DNA of 64,000 nucleotides, taken from positions 32,235 through 96,234 of IMG/VR virus record IMGVR_UViG_3300030118_003002. One strand, written 5' to 3'. The notes below the pieces were generated by a model. That model saw nothing but the letters and a program-made list of their open reading frames with translations, searched no databases and was not told the DNA's origin. The position numbers and the translations under genes are program-made. This DNA is from a virus. Shown piece by piece: positions 9,712 through 47,502 of the stretch (position 1 is the first letter of the stretch; the number at the start of each line of letters is the position of its first letter).

Positions 9712-10755
9712 TTACTCACCTAAATAATCTGGGTATCTCCAACATTTACCAACACAATAACCATCAGAAATTAACTTATTACAGAAAGGAGTTTTATAAT
9801 TCCCAAACACTGTAAATTTAGCATGTTTTCTTGTAGTGGCTTCATCCCAATCTAACCATATTTCGTCATTAGATTCGGCCAACTGTTTTATTTCAGCAAC
9901 AACTAAGTCCAATACTTCTTGTTTTTCCTTTAAAGAATTGATAGGTCGTCTCCCTGTTAGCAAGTCTCTATACCAAGAAACAAGATATGCTCTAGCCATA
10001 TGCGAAGGATTCTCCGTCATAATAGCACTATGTAAGCAGGGCAATATAGGCAATTTACCTGTGTATTTTGCGACACTAATTTCGCCCTCGACTGTATCAA
10101 TAGGGGGTGCTTTTGGAAAAACTACCTTCTTATTGCCGCCCATCTGAAACCGTAAAAGGCGGGGTTTGGTTGCTAACTCAAGAATATGCTCAAGATTAAA
10201 AGAAAGGTCATCAATAATTAAAGGAATGCAATAATACGGATTACCTTCTTTATCAGAAGATGACATATTAACTGTGTTAGGAACTCTTCTCAATCTTGTT
10301 GGTTGTCCTACTCTATCATCTAAAGTATTCTTTCCGCTAAAAGATTGTTTAAGCACTTCTTTCATTCCTCTAAAGAATGTTTGAATATCTCTAATACTTT
10401 CTGTTGGCTCTCCAAATAAAAATAAATGGAAACCTCTCCCCGAAAAGAAGATAGTATGCTTCCAATCATTTTGGATAACCTTTTGCATTATCATTTGTAA
10501 ATCTCTCCATGCTAATTCTAAATCATTATCATGTCCGTCAAAATCTAAAAAAATCCTATCAAGAATAACTGATGATTCTATTTTTGCTGTTTCCGAAAAG
10601 TGTTCAAAGTCGTAAACGGTTGTATAAACATTTGTCCTATTATTTTGAGCATTAATAAACTTAACATATTCATTCCTCGATGAGACTACTTTTCTTTTCA
10701 TTTGTGGGGCGTTCTTTATGTGACTCCCCGCCCAAACTTCCCTCGGATATTTCAT
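9712..10755 (-). CDS. Archaeo-eukaryotic primase, PriS fused to a PriL-type Fe-S domain
   Basis: 347 residues. The catalytic AEP part shows 'RIFLDFDGHDND' (DxD), 'FFSGRGFHLFLFG' (the SGRGxH motif) and 'GQPTRLRRVPNT'. The C-terminal third has four spaced cysteines: 'LPCLHSAI', 'PFCNKLISDGYC' and 'GKCWRYP', the arrangement that holds the 4Fe-4S cluster of the PriL C-terminal domain. The virus has therefore merged the catalytic and iron-sulfur parts into one chain. ATG follows GGAGGT at seven bases. It should synthesise primers for PolB. Confidence 0.85.
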   Translation of the reverse strand: MKYPREVWAGSHIKNAPQMKRKVVSSRNEYVKFINAQNNRTNVYTTVYDFEHFSETAKIESSVILDRIFLDFDGHDNDLELAWRDLQMIMQKVIQNDWKHTIFFSGRGFHLFLFGEPTESIRDIQTFFRGMKEVLKQSFSGKNTLDDRVGQPTRLRRVPNTVNMSSSDKEGNPYYCIPLIIDDLSFNLEHILELATKPRLLRFQMGGNKKVVFPKAPPIDTVEGEISVAKYTGKLPILPCLHSAIMTENPSHMARAYLVSWYRDLLTGRRPINSLKEKQEVLDLVVAEIKQLAESNDEIWLDWDEATTRKHAKFTVFGNYKTPFCNKLISDGYCVGKCWRYPDYLGE

Positions 10756-30784: not shown

Positions 30785-30960
30785 TTAAATTTCCTCCTTG
30801 CTTCTTCAAATATATTATAGTGGTCTTTACGACCAGAAATAATTTGCTTTTTGCAATATTCCTTTCTTTTATTATTAGTAGTCACATAAGTATTTAGAAA
30901 ATCCTTTTTCCAATATCTATGCTCGCTTGTCGGTATTACATCTCTCATTCTTATTGTCAT
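30781..30960 (-). CDS. 59-residue basic protein
   Basis: MTIRMRDVIPTSEHRYWKKDFLNTY..., rich in Lys, Arg and Tyr. It overlaps the TFB gene end by 44 bases and has GTGA coupling to the next gene. Unknown. Confidence 0.5.
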   Translation of the reverse strand: MTIRMRDVIPTSEHRYWKKDFLNTYVTTNNKRKEYCKKQIISGRKDHYNIFEEARRKFK

Positions 30961-31816
30961 TTATATCACCATATTCTATTATATCTCGCCCTTTAATTTC
31001 GGACATTCTATTAAATCCTAACATTTGGATTAATTTTTTACTTGTCTTTCCTATTGCTGATAAGGAAATATCTGTGCTTTCAGAAATATCATTCTTAGTT
31101 ACACCATAATATCTAAACATATTTGTCGCCACCCAGCATACACTTGCGTAATATGCCTTTGATTTATGATAACAATGGTCTTCTATGATAGGTTCTAACT
31201 TTAACATCAAATCCATAGCATTAGAATAAAACATCACATCATCTGTTATTCTAGAACAGGTCTGCTTTAACATAAAAGAAGGGTCTGCTCCGTAAAGTAT
31301 ATTCTTACTCTTAAAGTGGTGAATCATTTTACGCACTAATCTATTCACTACTTTAGTTGAACATGAATATTCAGAACATAATTCTTTCATAGGAACAGGT
31401 GTTCTATTTTCTTTCAGAACATAAAAGACAACAGCAGTGCATCTAGCCTCTAGTTTGATTTTACCAAACAAACCTTTCTTCTGTGCTTCTAAGTAACATT
31501 CCTTAACTCTATCTTTAAGAGGGTGGTTTATTTGAATAGAAGATAGAATCATATTACAGGTCTGCAAACCAGCAGTAATATGTCTAGGAATAACATTATT
31601 GTTTCCTCTCCTATTAAACTTAAATGAACCCTTTCCTGTTATTATAGAACCCAATTCTCCTCTTTCAGCAGAATGAACAACCTTTCCGTCATCTATCATT
31701 CTGACACTTTCTTCAAACAAATCTGTTACGACCACTAATCCGCAATCGCTACATTCTGTTTCTCCTAGTCTTTCATTATAATTAAAGACTAAACAACCAC
31801 ATTCACCGCATTTCAT
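30917..31816 (-). CDS. tfb: Transcription initiation factor B (TFB/TFIIB-like)
   Basis: 299 residues. The N-terminal zinc ribbon is 'MKCGECGCLVFNY...ECSDCGLVV' (CxxC...CxxC). A B-reader/linker-like region follows ('GELGSIITGKGSFKFNRRG'), then two cyclin-like repeats ('LEARCTAVVFYVLKENRTPVPMKELC' and 'KSKAYYASVCWVATNMFRYYGVTKNDIS'). Archaeal TFB binds TBP-TATA and recruits RNA polymerase. A viral copy implies takeover of host promoter selection and agrees with the TATA promoters in the window. Confidence 0.88.
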   Translation of the reverse strand: MKCGECGCLVFNYNERLGETECSDCGLVVVTDLFEESVRMIDDGKVVHSAERGELGSIITGKGSFKFNRRGNNNVIPRHITAGLQTCNMILSSIQINHPLKDRVKECYLEAQKKGLFGKIKLEARCTAVVFYVLKENRTPVPMKELCSEYSCSTKVVNRLVRKMIHHFKSKNILYGADPSFMLKQTCSRITDDVMFYSNAMDLMLKLEPIIEDHCYHKSKAYYASVCWVATNMFRYYGVTKNDISESTDISLSAIGKTSKKLIQMLGFNRMSEIKGRDIIEYGDINDNKNERCNTDKRA

Positions 31817-33053
31817 CAAAATCAACTCTTATACTATTTTCATTATTACATATATACCTTTTAATCGTGCTAACTATTTTTACTGTTAAAGTATCATTAA
31901 GAAGTGCTAATGCTCTTGCTACAAATTGGTCGCCTAAAGAAGAACCGCCAGACATATTATCAATACAAATTGGTCCTTTCCATTGAGGTTCATTAGTTGG
32001 TTTTGGCGGTAATTTAATTTCTTCTTCAGAACCATTATTAATAGCATCAATATTAATTCCAAAACATTCTTCTTCCCACTTCTCAATTTTTTGTGCGAAG
32101 TGTTCATCAGTATCGGGTGTTGAATAAACAAATGTCGAAACCATCTGAATATCTGATTTGAATTTAGTGTTCGTAAGTTTCCAATCCCAGCCTTTTCCAC
32201 GAACATACATGGCTGATACTTCTTTATCATCATCGTAAATGACTTTGATTCTATCAGGATATTTTTCTTCTGTTTCTTTAACTAATAACTTAGCCCTATC
32301 TTCAACAATATCCTGTTGTCTATTTTGTTTTAGAAATTCAATCATTAGTTTTCTATCTGAAACTTTTGGTTTAACTCCTACTGTTCTTTCATAAAGAATT
32401 TCAGGAGAACAAAACATCCATTTTTTACTTCTCTTTTTACCATGAAGATAAAAAGCGCAAAAGGATTCTAATTCTTTATTAGTCATAGTTCCCCAAACTC
32501 CATCACTAACCTCAATCGCAACTTCATTATCGCTAATTTGCTGACAATTCAATCTAACATTAGTTTTCTGAAAATCATCGAAGAAATGGAATGGCACTCT
32601 ATTCTCTAAACAATACTTTACATCTTCGGGAATACTTAGAGTAGCATACAATCCTTTCATTAGTTTAGCCACATCTTTTTCAAAACATGACTTGAAAGTA
32701 ACTCTAGCCAAAGCAGAAGCAATAGTATGCAAACTTTCTGTTTTACCATTAAGAGTATATCTGCTACCCTTTTTTCCTAATGCTATCAAACAACCTCCAA
32801 TATCAATAACTTCGTTAAAGTCCCTTGAAGGTAAGTTCATATATCTATAATGTCTAGTATAATATCCTCGTCTTGAGGATTTTAAGTTGCTAGAAAAGAA
32901 AGCCGTAATAGCCGAATGAACGGGGTCTTTTGCATTTCTATTAGATTGAATAGAAACATCGTGTGGCGTTTTAATCAAATTACTTCTAATCGTTGTTCTC
33001 CAATGTTGTTGGGAATCATCAGGTCTTTTTATTCTTATTTTTAATTCATTCAT
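31803..33053 (-). CDS. 416-residue protein, unknown
   Basis: Not recognised. An N-terminal basic segment ('LKIRIKRPDDSQQHWR') precedes a globular alpha/beta body and a region with 'GKGWDWKLTNTKFKSDIQMVSTFVY'. The C-terminal part holds 'QWKGPICIDNMSGGSSLGDQF' then a hydrophobic helix. An E2-like fold was considered because E1, JAB and Ubl genes are near, but no catalytic-Cys pattern is convincing. It overlaps tfb by 14 bases. Confidence 0.7.
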   Translation of the reverse strand: MNELKIRIKRPDDSQQHWRTTIRSNLIKTPHDVSIQSNRNAKDPVHSAITAFFSSNLKSSRRGYYTRHYRYMNLPSRDFNEVIDIGGCLIALGKKGSRYTLNGKTESLHTIASALARVTFKSCFEKDVAKLMKGLYATLSIPEDVKYCLENRVPFHFFDDFQKTNVRLNCQQISDNEVAIEVSDGVWGTMTNKELESFCAFYLHGKKRSKKWMFCSPEILYERTVGVKPKVSDRKLMIEFLKQNRQQDIVEDRAKLLVKETEEKYPDRIKVIYDDDKEVSAMYVRGKGWDWKLTNTKFKSDIQMVSTFVYSTPDTDEHFAQKIEKWEEECFGINIDAINNGSEEEIKLPPKPTNEPQWKGPICIDNMSGGSSLGDQFVARALALLNDTLTVKIVSTIKRYICNNENSIRVDFDEMR

Positions 33054-41867: not shown

Positions 41868-42029
41868 CGGGCTATGTGGGGTTCGAACCCACGACCAACG
41901 GGTATCTTTTGAGGAAAATGAGTTATGAGAAAGTATAACACATAATCGAAAATTGAGCAAGACCCCATTTATTACTTCGATAAAACCTCATTAAAAGCCC
42001 GTTGCGCTACCTGACTGCGCCAATAGCCC
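41868..42029 (-). tRNA. trnK: tRNA-Lys(UUU) with an 88-base bulge-helix-bulge intron
   Basis: Acceptor stem GGGCTAT/ATAGCCC, D stem GCGC/GCGC, anticodon stem ACGGG/CCCGT, loop CTTTTAA with anticodon TTT, T arm GTGGG-TTCGAAC-CCCAC, discriminator G, no encoded CCA. The anticodon loop is interrupted between positions 37 and 38 by 41904-41991. At the junction CTTT/AAAG form the 4-bp helix, the bulges are TAA and ATA, and TGAGG/CCTCA is the intron helix: a strict archaeal BHB. Mature length is 74. Confidence 0.95.
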
Positions 42030-43877: not shown

Positions 43878-43918
43878 AACCATATGGTATGTCTTTTGAA
43901 CATACCTTATGATAAAGT
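43878..43918 (+). promoter_or_regulatory. CATATG/inverted-repeat promoter element, copy a
   Basis: AACCATATGGTA (43878-43889) merges into GGTATGT (43886-43892), loop CTTTTGA, ACATACC (43900-43906), then TTATGATAAAG as the TATA box. The 43937 ATG is about 25 bases beyond the TATA box, so the mRNA should be leaderless. Confidence 0.7.
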
Positions 43919-43936
43919 AATTAAATTGATATTAAT

Positions 43937-44326
43937 ATGACATGGGTAAATATATCATGCAAGAATAACTGTGGAGAAACAATATCAGTAGGCCACTATG
44001 GACTAGGTGATTATGAAGATGAATATGCAGATTATGAAATCATCGCTACCTGTGGTGAATGTAATCGTGCAGAACAGGGTATTCCAAGCAAATACGAAGA
44101 AGAACGAACATATGAGGAATCTATGACCGATTTCAAAACTAGAGTTATGAACGAAGGAATTGATAATGTGATTGATTATCGGATTGTGTATGAAGGCAAT
44201 CTGAATGATGTAGTCCAATTTACTGTTAGTTTGTGGAAGGAACAATCACATCCTAGATATTTAGAGGCAATTTGGGGATTGTTGAAAACACTACCTAGTA
44301 ATGGATTAATGGTGGTGGCCGAGTAA
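43937..44326 (+). CDS. 129-residue zinc-binding protein
   Basis: MTWVNISCKNNCGETISVG... has CxxxC near residues 8-12 and 'IATCGECNRAEQG' (CxxC), then acidic helices. Predicted leaderless, monocistronic, with a strong terminator. The start MTW recalls the late tag, but the next residues do not fit it. Function unknown. Confidence 0.65.
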   Translation: MTWVNISCKNNCGETISVGHYGLGDYEDEYADYEIIATCGECNRAEQGIPSKYEEERTYEESMTDFKTRVMNEGIDNVIDYRIVYEGNLNDVVQFTVSLWKEQSHPRYLEAIWGLLKTLPSNGLMVVAE

Positions 44327-44350
44327 AAATCGGCCATCACCTATTTTTTT
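44314..44350 (+). terminator. Terminator of the 43937 gene
   Basis: GGTGGCCGA pairs with TCGGCCATCACC, with the stop codon in the loop, and is followed by TATTTTTTT. Confidence 0.85.
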
Positions 44351-44384
44351 ATGGTCTGTGCCGTTGCTCAAAAGAACACTTCCA

Positions 44385-44427
44385 AACCATATGGTTGAGT
44401 CTTTTGAATAAACCCTAGATAAAGTAT
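44385..44427 (+). promoter_or_regulatory. CATATG promoter element, copy b (drives ncRNA)
   Basis: AACCATATGGTT (44385-44396), then GAGTCTTTTGAATA, AACC and CTAGATAAAGTAT as the TATA box. The arm pairing is weaker here (GGTT/AACC) than in the other copies. No gene follows for 490 bases; a structured RNA does. Confidence 0.6.
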
Positions 44428-44446
44428 TGATAAACATAGTATTGTT

Positions 44447-44822
44447 CAGCAAGGGTTCGCTACCTTTGTTGGATAGTCAGTGGCCGAATACACTAGTAGC
44501 GGTGTAAGGCACTTCTTAACCGTGTGGTGCGGGTTTCACCCATTATCGGAAGTCCTATTGGATAGTATGATAGTGGTTCTTGAAGCGTATGTTCCTCAAA
44601 AGGGCATCAATTACCAATTGATGAATACATGAGAAGGTAGTGCGACCCTCAATTGAACAAAAGCAGTAAATTGAGTTACAAACTTAGTGGTGCAAGATAA
44701 TCCACTCCACTTCCTAGAACCAGAAATGGTATCTTCTAGGCTGACACCCTTTAGAATTCAGCGAGAGAGTCGAAAACTAAGCCGGTGGCTATCTCTCTCG
44801 CTGGATTCGCCTAAATTTTTTT
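44447..44822 (+). ncRNA. About 375-base structured non-coding RNA
   Basis: No credible open frame, higher GC than flanks, own promoter (copy b) and a terminator. Successive hairpins can be drawn: CAAGGGT/ACCTTTG, CAC/GTG, GGTG/CACC, CATCAATT/AATTGATG, CTCAATT/AATTGAG, CCTAGAA/TTCTAGG, and the final 16-bp GAATTCAGCGAGAGAG/CTCTCTCGCTGGATTC (44754-44769 with 44793-44808) followed by seven T. RNase P, SRP and group I/II motifs were looked for and not seen. TSS estimated from the TATA box. Confidence 0.65.
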
Positions 44823-44857
44823 ATGGTTTATCCATTAATTCAAAAGAACCATTACTC

Positions 44858-44895
44858 AACCATATGGTTTGAACTTTGTCAAACCTTACATATAG
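44858..44895 (+). promoter_or_regulatory. CATATG/inverted-repeat promoter element, copy c
   Basis: AACCATATGGTT (44858-44869), arms GGTTTGA (44866-44872)/TCAAACC (44879-44885) with loop ACTTTG, then TTACATATAG as the TATA box. ATG 44915 lies about 23 bases downstream: leaderless. Confidence 0.72.
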
Positions 44896-44914
44896 TCGTT
44901 TAATTTATAACAAC

Positions 44915-45151
44915 ATGGAAACCAAAGTAAAATGGGGAACAACAGTCCATCCGGACAATACAATACTAAAGCAAGTAATTAGCAAGTTTGAAGACGAAGA
45001 AACAATGTTTCATATTTGGAATAGAGCAGTTGCTAATGATGATTTACCTAAAATGAAGCATTTTATGGATATTGAAGCATTAACTATTACTTCTCAAGCG
45101 TTTGTATCTTTTAACGAATACTTAGAATATATGGGAGATGAAGAAGAATGA
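44915..45151 (+). CDS. 78-residue helical protein, unknown
   Basis: METKVKWGTTVHPDNTILKQVISKF..., ends 'GDEEE'. First gene of a four-gene leaderless operon. An earlier in-frame ATG at 44876 lies inside the promoter and is rejected. Confidence 0.65.
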   Translation: METKVKWGTTVHPDNTILKQVISKFEDEETMFHIWNRAVANDDLPKMKHFMDIEALTITSQAFVSFNEYLEYMGDEEE

Positions 45152-45294
45152 ATGATTATGAAATGATGAAGAAAATAATATTCAACTTGGCTGAATACCT
45201 AAATTGTCCTAATGAAGAATTAGAGAAAATGATAGGTGTTAGTTGGATGCGATTTCATAGTTTAGTAGCAAGATTGGAGGGAGAAGAAGAATGA
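45148..45294 (+). CDS. 48-residue helical protein
   Basis: MNDYEMMKKIIFNLAEYLNCPNEELEKMIG... reads like a short HTH-type helix bundle ('NLAEYLNCPNEELEKMIGVSW'). Starts ATGA against the previous gene, ends 'GEEE'. Confidence 0.55.
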   Translation: MNDYEMMKKIIFNLAEYLNCPNEELEKMIGVSWMRFHSLVARLEGEEE

Positions 45295-45440
45295 GTTGTT
45301 ATGATTGTGGAAGTAATAAATTAGAGATGGAAGAAAGTTATACAGGCACTTGGTTCATTTGCTGTAAAGAATGTGAATGGGTCGAGATATACGATTTGTA
45401 TAAAGCAGATAATGAACCGGAAAATTATGGAGATGATTAA
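45291..45440 (+). CDS. 49-residue zinc-ribbon protein
   Basis: 'MSCYDCGSNKLEM' and 'WFICCKECEWVEIY' supply two CxxC knuckles. ATGA overlap with the gene before. Confidence 0.65.
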   Translation: MSCYDCGSNKLEMEESYTGTWFICCKECEWVEIYDLYKADNEPENYGDD

Positions 45441-45602
45441 ATGGATAGAATAGAAAAGATGAGAAAAAGAGTTGCTGAAGGTGAAGCATGGTGGGCAGAT
45501 TATGTCGCTAAAATAAATGAGCAGAATGCAGATAAAGTTGCTATTGGTTGTGTTTTGAATCCAGATAAGCCTTTAACATCTGAAAGAAGATATGTTGATT
45601 AA
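45441..45602 (+). CDS. 53-residue protein, unknown
   Basis: MDRIEKMRKRVAEGEAWWADYVAK..., helical, ending 'TSERRYVD'. Adjacent (TAAATG) to the zinc-ribbon gene and followed by a terminator. Confidence 0.58.
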   Translation: MDRIEKMRKRVAEGEAWWADYVAKINEQNADKVAIGCVLNPDKPLTSERRYVD

Positions 45603-45603
45603 A

Positions 45604-45637
45604 GGGGATTGGGGCGAAAGCCCCATCCTCTTTTTTT
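45604..45637 (+). terminator. Terminator of the 44915-45602 operon
   Basis: AGGGGAT-TGGGGC pairs with GCCCCA-TCCTCT around GAAA, then seven T. Confidence 0.82.
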
Positions 45638-45641
45638 AACA

Positions 45642-45712
45642 GATAAGGTAGCACAAAGTCGCTACCATATGGTTGTGTCACACTTTGGTAATACGGAGTA
45701 TTTGACACAACC
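45642..45712. promoter_or_regulatory. CATATG element, copy d, with arms on both sides
   Basis: Centre ACCATATGGT (45664-45673). To the left GGTAGC/GCTACC (45647-45652 with 45661-45666) leads on the minus strand to CCTTATCTG. To the right GGTTGTGTCA and TGACACAACC (10 bp) flank a 22-base loop with CACTTTGGTAAT. No gene follows on the minus side. Confidence 0.55.
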
Positions 45713-45717
45713 CTATT

Positions 45718-45787
45718 AAAAAAAATAGTGGGCGGAAGGGGAAACAGCGAGTGTCCTTTGGTTTTCTCACTGTTTCCCCCTTCCTAC
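45718..45787 (-). terminator. Terminator of paralogue 2
   Basis: GGAAGGGGAAACAG(C)GAG pairs with CTC(A)CTGTTTCC-CCCTTCC; the minus strand ends in eight T. Confidence 0.82.
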
Positions 45788-45861
45788 TCTTCCGCATTGA
45801 CCTATGTTCAGATTCAATTGTAATTTTAACAGGTGTTACCGGATGCCCGTAGGAATCGTAT

Positions 45862-45887
45862 GGGGCTTAAAGGGATTGAATCGGTAT
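45862..45887 (-). repeat. 3' trailer complementary to the leader of paralogue 2
   Basis: Plus-strand GGGGCTTAAAGGGATTGAATC plus GGTAT begins at the stop codon of the 45887 gene. It repeats the leader at 46447-46472 in inverted orientation, so the two ends of the mRNA can pair. Confidence 0.7.
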
Positions 45888-46417
45888 CACACGGCATCCT
45901 CCTCTTGGGATTCTTCCGTTTCTTCCTCGTCTGAGGAATTGGACTTCATAGGCGGAGTCATGCCTGTTAGTCCACTATCGCTCATAGTTCCATCCCAGCG
46001 ACCATCTTTCAATGCCGCTTTTAGAACTCTTACAGCCTTTGTTGCCATATCAGAAGCCAATGCTTCAATGTCAGCGTATGCGCCACCTGTTTTACCATGT
46101 GGCAGCATTACTTCAAGTAGCAAGTCAGCGTCTGAAATTGTGACAAATGCATTTTGAATGCGATTGCTCACAGAATCCACAACTGCCTGAATTGCTGGGT
46201 CTAGCGTTGAGCCACGACCTTTCTTTATTGGCGAGTTTGGGAGGGTCTTGCATAATGCCCGAACTGCTTCCCAAAAACGATTTCTGTCATCATCAGATGC
46301 GGCTGAATCGCCAGCATCTAGATTTACTGTTATTACTGCTCCCATAGCCCCTGCATCATTATGCTCAAGCCATGCTCTAATTTCGTTAGACTTTGTTATC
46401 CACTTTTCTTGTTCCAT
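45887..46417 (-). CDS. Paralogue 2 of the regulatory-island family
   Basis: 176 residues, MEQEKWITKSNEIRAWLEHNDAG... Near-identical blocks with paralogue 3 include 'DRNRFWEAVRALCKTLPNSP' and 'IKKGRGSTL'. Shared with both paralogues are the 'HGKTGGA' loop and 'WDG(T/S)'. The tail is Ser/Glu-rich. ATG 46417 is chosen by alignment with paralogue 3 and follows AGGAGATG. Own promoter (copy e) and terminator. Function not recognised; an abundant regulatory or DNA-binding protein is possible. Confidence 0.72.
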   Translation of the reverse strand: MEQEKWITKSNEIRAWLEHNDAGAMGAVITVNLDAGDSAASDDDRNRFWEAVRALCKTLPNSPIKKGRGSTLDPAIQAVVDSVSNRIQNAFVTISDADLLLEVMLPHGKTGGAYADIEALASDMATKAVRVLKAALKDGRWDGTMSDSGLTGMTPPMKSNSSDEEETEESQEEDAV

Positions 46418-46446
46418 TCTTTTCATCTCCTGTATTGACTCCATCA

Positions 46447-46472
46447 ATACCGACTCAATCCCTTTGAGCCAC
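46447..46472 (-). repeat. 5' leader repeat of paralogue 2
   Basis: Minus-strand GTGGCTCAAAGGGATTGAGTC plus GGTAT, starting about where transcription should begin (23 bases from the TATA box). Complementary to the trailer at 45862-45887 with one mismatch and one G-U. Confidence 0.7.
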
Positions 46473-46490
46473 TACTATCCAATAACCTAC

Positions 46491-46526
46491 TTTATGTAAG
46501 GTTGCTCAAAGATGCAACCATATGGT
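46491..46526 (-). promoter_or_regulatory. CATATG/inverted-repeat promoter element, copy e
   Basis: Minus strand: ACCATATGGT, arms GGTTGC/GCAACC (46500-46505 with 46514-46519) around ATCTTTGA, then TTACATAAA (46491-46499) as the TATA box. Confidence 0.72.
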
Positions 46527-46573
46527 AATAAATATTCATGTAATGAATACACTTTGGTTTTACTACCCTAAAA

Positions 46574-46661
46574 TAAAAAAATAAGGCATAACCCGCATAG
46601 GCTGATTAATCATACAGATAATAGATATAAGAATCGGAATTATCAGTCCTATGCGGGTTAT
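46574..46661 (-). terminator. Terminator of paralogue 3
   Basis: ATAACCCGCATAGG (46588-46601) pairs perfectly with CCTATGCGGGTTAT (46648-46661), extended by CTGAT/ATCAG; T-run on the minus strand at 46574-46581. Confidence 0.85.
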
Positions 46662-46672
46662 TTGGTGAATCT

Positions 46673-46698
46673 GGGGCTTGGGGATTAAAGCATCAATC
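46673..46698 (-). repeat. 3' trailer complementary to the leader of paralogue 3
   Basis: Plus-strand GGGGCTTGGGGATTAAAGC plus ATCAATC, starting at the stop codon. Inverted copy of the leader at 47212-47238; the changes relative to it are mostly G-U compatible. Confidence 0.7.
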
Positions 46699-47185
46699 AT
46701 TCTTCCTCGTCAACCTCCTCAACGGGGAATGCTTGGGTTAATAGCCCTTGACGACTACCATCCCAAATTTGCTCTTTGTATCTCTTCTTGAGAGAATTAA
46801 CTACTGTTTGTGACATATATGCAGAATACTCGTCAGCAGTGAATAAACCACCACCACTCTTTCCATGCTTCAATAGAAGCATATTCATGTCACCAATAGC
46901 AAAAAAATCACTAGCGGCTTGAGCGACTTCATCAGATATTGAATCTAAAACCGCTTGGACTTCATTAGGTAGTGTTGAACCACGACCTTTCTTAATAGGG
47001 CTATTTGGAAGTGTTTTACACAAGGCTCTAACTGCCTCCCAAAATCTATTCCTATCTTCATCTGTTTGTGCTTCATTACCGGCTTCAATATTAACTTGAA
47101 TAACCTGTCCCATAGCACCTGCGTCATTTTCCTTTAACCATGCAATAATCATGGCAACTTTATCATTCCATTTTTCTATTTCCAT
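46697..47185 (-). CDS. Paralogue 3 of the regulatory-island family
   Basis: 162 residues, MEIEKWNDKVAMIIAWLKENDAGAMGQ... Same blocks as paralogue 2 ('EDRNRFWEAVRALCKTLPNS'), plus 'LLLKHGKSGGGLFTADEYSAYM' and 'KEQIWDGSRQGLL' shared with paralogue 1. Acidic end 'EEVDEEE'. Ribosome site AGGAGTTGATT upstream. Own promoter and terminator. Confidence 0.72.
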   Translation of the reverse strand: MEIEKWNDKVAMIIAWLKENDAGAMGQVIQVNIEAGNEAQTDEDRNRFWEAVRALCKTLPNSPIKKGRGSTLPNEVQAVLDSISDEVAQAASDFFAIGDMNMLLLKHGKSGGGLFTADEYSAYMSQTVVNSLKKRYKEQIWDGSRQGLLTQAFPVEEVDEEE

Positions 47186-47211
47186 TCTTAATCAACTCCT
47201 AAAATGTGTTA

Positions 47212-47238
47212 GATTAATGCTTCAATCCCCGAAGCCAC
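47212..47238 (-). repeat. 5' leader repeat of paralogue 3
   Basis: Minus-strand GTGGCTTCGGGGATTGAAGC plus ATTAATC, at the predicted transcription start. Can also fold locally as GCTTC/GAAGC around GGGGATT. Confidence 0.7.
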
Positions 47239-47256
47239 TACTATTTGACCTCGGAC

Positions 47257-47308
47257 TTCATATAAGGTAGCCATTCGTGCCTCATTACCAAAGTTGCTAC
47301 CATATGCT
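47257..47308 (-). promoter_or_regulatory. CATATG/inverted-repeat promoter element, copy f
   Basis: Minus strand: CATATGGTAGC, then a longer loop with AACTTTGGT, then GCTACC and the TATA box CTTATATGA (47257-47265). The arms GGTAGC/GCTACC are the same as in copy d. Confidence 0.65.
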
Positions 47309-47310
47309 TT

Positions 47311-47502
47311 TAACATTAATTGGCTGATATTATTATTTATACAACCATATGGCTTTGTCCAAATTTTTTATTTTTTATATTAACATTAAAATGCCTGTAT
47401 TTAACGGTTAATTAACCAATATTAACATTTGAAGGTTAATTATTTCGCCATTAAACCGGCATTATTATATGTTTTACAGCCCTCGCCTAATCCGAGATAT
47501 AC
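47311..47502 (+). promoter_or_regulatory. Late-side control region
   Basis: Holds a shortened CATATG copy (AACCATATGGC at 47343-47353), the palindrome GGTTAATTAACC (47406-47417), repeated ATTAACATT words, and a TATA box TTATATG (47465-47471) about 35 bases before the first late gene. It probably controls the switch to the late block. Confidence 0.45.

Follow-up and report, generated by a model that had tools for sequence, protein, structure and literature searches.

The central finding of this analysis is a gene for a manA-class RNA, standing free of any neighboring gene, in a magrovirus-like virus that is probably archaeal. The RNA lies at positions 44447-44822 (376 nt, + strand) of the window, as we call the whole 64,000-nt stretch analyzed here, itself part of a 96-kb virus record. 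The structured RNA at this place is real. To judge from its model matches and helices, it is no RNA of unknown kind but a homologue of manA (RF01745), longer and divergent, and should be treated as such or as a new subfamily, outside the existing Rfam entry. The kind of virus that carries it is unexpected. New here is that viruses which are probably archaeal carry manA-class RNA, that it stands free in them, and that there is evidence against calling it a riboswitch. To our knowledge, manA has been a riboswitch candidate for more than 10 years, with no ligand. Its predicted lone transcription in viruses with probable archaeal hosts and the position of phage copies between tRNAs suggest looking for partners in trans rather than for ligands, and the cis-regulatory label of manA should be revised. 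It would be a rare structured RNA common to viruses of two domains of life, an idea that is testable at once in cultured cyanophages.

The virus owes its placement to its gene set. The clamp loader is of archaeal type, with RFC small subunits as its best solved relatives, and the chaperonin is closest to GroEL. An SF1 helicase, a terminase, and, as read from the ORFs, a family-B polymerase in split form are encoded as well. The product of 30917-31825 resembles a TFB-like zinc-ribbon protein on visual inspection, with no significant match in a profile search. This set agrees with that of the magrovirus family Aoguangviridae, which includes TFB, RFC-S, PCNA, PolB-NTD/CTD, and GroEL (PMC10768690), so that the virus is probably magrovirus-like and archaeal, and we infer that its hosts are Poseidoniales archaea.

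The settings of manA in phages are varied. In several phages it is wedged among tRNA genes with gaps of ~0 to 8 nt: in S-CREM1 it fills the space between tRNA-Leu and tRNA-Asn exactly; in L121-L125 it lies 5 and 1 nt from the flanking tRNAs (5 and 2 nt in L119); in L063/L066 it has tRNA-Thr and tRNA-Asn on its two sides; and a tRNA-Gly stands on its 3' side in S-SSM7 and S-SSM6a and before it in L060-L062. Elsewhere (L056-L059 and L065), manA starts downstream of a terminator and a -10-like box, and a terminator of its own ends it. An ORF lies 12 to 26 nt after it in P-TIM40 (where the gene is talC), L055, and L060, and a gene on the opposite strand follows it in P-TIM68. The tRNA-wedged, own-terminator, and ORF-adjacent settings are all explained by an RNA that has defined ends and acts in trans; a riboswitch explains only the last.

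We consider it reasonably probable that the window holds an autonomous noncoding RNA gene of a magrovirus-like virus whose product, a divergent manA homologue, acts in trans in infection, with translation as its most likely arena. A leaderless-type viral promoter would set the 5' end of the RNA at hairpin H0, and the transcript, which would not be joined to the following gene, would fold into the manA architecture of H0, P1, P2 with its GAA/A loop, a branched P3 domain bearing the GUGGUG-loop hairpin, P5, and P6; these steps can be read from the DNA itself. The RNA would be transcribed, released with defined ends, and active in trans during infection. Its target may, more speculatively, lie in the translation machinery (the ribosome or tRNA handling), a process common to bacterial and archaeal hosts. 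Translation is proposed from the phage neighborhood only, where the same RNA sits directly between tRNA genes; against it, the tRNA of the window itself is 2.4 kb from the element. A wider generalization is possible, though short of probable: manA may be a trans-acting RNA rather than a riboswitch, carried by tailed viruses of bacteria and archaea and directed at a shared machine, likeliest the ribosome/tRNA pathway, with the magrovirus gene as its free-standing archaeal form.

A trans-acting manA-class RNA could instead serve outside translation, as a decoy for an RNA-targeting defense or nuclease, as a packaging RNA, or as an assembling RNA scaffold. An autonomous transcript with a rigid fold would suit such roles, and the structured phage RNAs ROOL and GOLLD form RNA cages and are also often near phage tRNA islands (PMC12286853). 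Yet both are much larger than the window RNA and unrelated to it in sequence and fold, and Rfam 15 at gathering scores matched only a tRNA in the window, with GOLLD, ROOL, OLE, and all other families unmatched. As no specific evidence points to a decoy, packaging, or scaffold role, we regard this reading as unlikely, if worth keeping in mind.

It is more doubtful still that the RNA is a cis-regulatory leader controlling the next gene. Rfam assigns manA the type Cis-reg, the literature describes it in 5' UTRs as maybe a riboswitch (PMC2864571; PMC7657543), with Weinberg et al. 2010 placing it in potential 5' UTRs (PMC2864571), and the ORF-adjacent copies in P-TIM40, L055, and L060 agree with such a role. 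The organization of the window argues otherwise. A CCATATGG palindrome (44387-44394, + strand), followed by a TATA-like ACCCTAGATAAAGTA (44412-44426, + strand), forms the core of the RNA's own promoter and stands 52 nt before the first hairpin, a spacing as in leaderless genes: in the window and its relatives, the ATGs of such genes lie most commonly 45 to 51 nt from the palindrome, and in six magroviruses the first hairpin of the RNA is found at +49, +52, +52, +52, +52, and +59. The sequence-only reading had given the RNA a leaderless-type promoter of its own, and the palindrome and its spacing, which match those of neighboring leaderless genes, uphold this. The window has six copies of CCATATGG against 0.65 expected, all within 43880-47345, and these palindromes are probably a promoter class of the viruses concerned. 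Clusters of CCATATGG in a small-gene stretch, with starts ~45 to 51 nt downstream, are seen at window positions 43880-47345 and also in L004, L006-L012, and L014.

In magroviruses the gene after the RNA is served by a separate promoter; in the window, where its ATG is at 44915, this is a CCATATGG promoter at 44860, which puts the ATG at +47. This second palindrome and the promoter spacing of the RNA itself mark the RNA as a separate unit. Downstream of the magrovirus copies stand differing genes at differing distances. In L006, the RNA and its neighboring gene keep their place and order (window 43937-44326; L006 7587-7952), yet each has the opposite orientation with respect to the helicase, which argues against coupling of the RNA to one gene. 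A 5' UTR position was looked for and found neither for the window RNA nor for many of the phage copies, which lie between tRNAs, before a terminator, or, in P-TIM68, before the opposite-strand gene.

The wcaG RNA (RF01761) was observed amid manA-bearing, tRNA-rich stretches in L121 (6646-6748), L122 (6340-6442), and S-CREM1 (9745-9842). Like manA, it is a marine phage RNA labeled cis-regulatory; it differs from the window RNA in its fold and in its length of ~98 nt, and no copy turned up in the window. The label given to it may call for a similar review.

The identification with manA came from the search of RNA families that the sequence-only reading had proposed, and it overturned the view taken there, that none of the known large RNAs tried fits. 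In a permissive Rfam search, the manA model matched end to end, with all 192 of its positions covered, a score of 25.8 bits, and E = 1.2e-4 for 621 nt, and the window RNA (25.8 and 26.2 bits) stayed below the gathering cut-off of 55.2 bits. Searched against whole genomes, the manA model matched at the element in G000 and G001 (28.3 bits in G001) and at the homologous place beside the helicase in G009 (24.4 bits), G008 (21.5 bits), and G007 (14.5 bits); the controls in this search gave only noise, none above the cut-off. ARAGORN and Rfam found no tRNA or tmRNA at the element, and a blastn search with the RNA as query returned no match among 50,697 annotated phages. A pattern taken from magroviruses only (CCGAAT..GTAAGGYA..TGTGGTG) retrieved seven viral contigs, three of which are manA by Rfam (71.1, 71.1, and 132.6 bits). 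A model built from the magroviruses without G003, termed R1, scored G003 at 42.8 bits as an independent test, L050 at 46.9 bits, and cyanophage manA RNAs at ~15 to 32 bits; L050-L066 were picked by the sequence pattern, so that their R1 match is partly circular; neither the Rfam model nor the P1 covariation has this circularity. A looser DNA pattern was discarded, its hits being mostly coding-sequence false positives. Ten matches in genome_contigs look like chance, and the only one to reach 20.7 bits with R1, a weak match to the 5' core model in a Hydrogenophilus thiooxidans contig (L078, 2955-3014, - strand, E = 0.018), is probably chance too.

The resemblance to manA extends through the molecule. 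Both RNAs start at a 5' hairpin, have P1 directly before TGRCYGAA and an AC after P1, and contain a CCC/GGG hairpin. In the window RNA, P1 surrounds the whole RNA and is kept by compensatory change; the P2 stem has the GAA..UAA internal loop of manA; the short GUGGUG-loop hairpin lies in a branched domain, whose enclosing P3 helix was recognized by hand only; and P6 has the 11-nt loop ending UAAU in the window, G001, and G003, its loop being different and shorter in the G007/G008 group. The magrovirus RNAs differ from manA in a P1 span of 242 to 270 nt versus 170 to 188 nt, in additional hairpins both inside the P3 domain and upstream of the P1 3' strand, in scores of 14.5 to 28.3 bits with the RF01745 model (cut-off 55.2 bits), and in their context, namely, a probable archaeal virus, an archaeal-type promoter, and no downstream gene in the unit. 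The low Rfam score is mainly due to the extra hairpins that magroviruses carry inside P1, that at 44713-44740 being a main reason. The score below the cut-off, the ~100 nt of additional length, and the differing P6 of one magrovirus group are what might be expected of a real RNA unrelated to manA that converged on short motifs. We think this very improbable given the end-to-end manA matches in five magrovirus genomes, the manA-like helix order and conserved loops, the P1 covariation continuous with phage manA, and the retrieval of true manA by the magrovirus pattern.

On the + strand, the RNA is predicted to start at 44442-44447, at hairpin H0 (44447-44471); in phage manA RNAs a hairpin occupies the corresponding position, immediately downstream of either a -10-like box or a tRNA. 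The closing helix P1, supported by de novo RNAalifold, pair counts, and nine covarying versions, pairs GTCAG (44476-44480) with CTGAC, which is followed by a conserved ACCC tail (44741-44749 together). Next come the P2a/P2 stem-loop (44483-44510) with its conserved GAA/A internal loop (GCC GAA U... UA A GGC) and the P3 domain (44512-44636), in which CTTCT (44512-44516) pairs with AGAAG (44632-44636) around the branches, a helix derived from hand comparison of folds and weaker in G003. The branches are the P3a hairpin CCG[UGUGGUG]CGG with its invariant GUGGUG loop (44520-44532), the P4 stem-loop (44532-44586), a CCUCAAAAGGG hairpin (44594-44604) positioned as the CCC-CGACCA-GGG of manA, and an extra magrovirus hairpin (44605-44623), which covaries by pair counts (helix 8). 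The P5 hairpin (44648-44675), the P6 hairpin (44686-44706; AGTGG/CCACT, AGTGA/TCACT in G003), and the inserted hairpin (44713-44740) ahead of the P1 3' strand complete the fold. We considered whether the GUGGUG loop might touch the CACC tail at the 3' end and dropped the idea, as the tail varies (CAC, CACC, CAT) with no covariation.

The conserved RNA proper ends at ~44749, and the downstream part is a terminator region. Here the 16-bp terminator of the sequence-only reading stands in part: the hairpin is present at 44754-44808, but it is common only to the window and G001, and the T7 run (44816-44822), a probable archaeal transcription stop, starts 7 nt after it. Some relatives have T-runs after the ACCC tail.

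The fold is conserved among relatives by compensatory changes, which had been set beforehand as a test of the element. Given seven magrovirus RNAs and no knowledge of manA, RNAalifold returned the manA plan, with P1 closing ~270 nt, P2a/P2 around the GAA/A internal loop, and the P3a hairpin with its invariant GUGGUG. In this fold, 92.9% of cells are paired, compared with 76% in shuffled and 38 to 44% in slid alignments; 23 of 41 pairs show changes on both sides, and covariation is 0.584 versus 0.261. For the 5' core in 23 RNAs from magroviruses and phages, the corresponding values are 96.4% paired, 77% shuffled, and 27 to 40% slid, with covariation of 0.52 versus 0.14. Nine forms of P1 occur, in common with true manA RNAs, and each is fully complementary (GTCAG/CTGAC, GTTGG/CCAAC, GACAT/ATGTC, GGGAT/ATCCC, GTGGG/CCCAC, GAGAG/CTCTC, GGGAG/CTCCC, GGGTG/CACCC, and GGATG/CATCC); the 3' strand was located by complementarity in this comparison, the independent test being the magrovirus-only RNAalifold.

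The element folds at -120.7 kcal/mol, whereas its shuffled versions average -95.4 (z = -4.74); none of 100 shuffles folds as well, and the opposite strand is clearly weaker (z = -2.97). GC content is 43.6% inside the element versus 37.1% and 34.7% in the 1-kb flanks. All six frames are broken by 4 to 11 stops each, the longest open run being 51 codons, and G001, a relative of 95% identity, differs inside the element by a 1-nt insertion and a 2-nt deletion, so that no frame is kept and the element is noncoding; a protein-coding reading was rejected on account of these indels between close relatives. The description of a large structured noncoding RNA with GC above its surroundings and no reading frame, made from the sequence alone, is thus confirmed on each point. 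A mere long intergenic terminator, or a DNA element that folds by chance, would fit the strong hairpin and T7 run within the element and is scarcely credible against the fold z of -4.7, nine helices with compensatory changes, and a dedicated promoter in six viruses.

Eight magrovirus contigs carry the RNA (the window, G001, G003, G007, G008, G009, G011, and L049), with G003 found by blastn and G011 by model R1. The model detected no copy in G004-G006, and several other contigs stop before its expected place. L007, L008, and L009, close magroviruses with helicases 73 to 76% identical, have no manA-like RNA. Just after the RNA, G008, G009, and G011 (L011, L012, and L014) share a conserved stretch in which a small ORF (MPLSxxKAMIEA) is possible, though its frame is not kept. 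The window also has a tRNA gene with a ~90-nt intron (41868-42029, - strand), 2.4 kb from the RNA element, which Rfam found and ARAGORN missed; several relatives have the gene too, in forms that keep or lack the intron.
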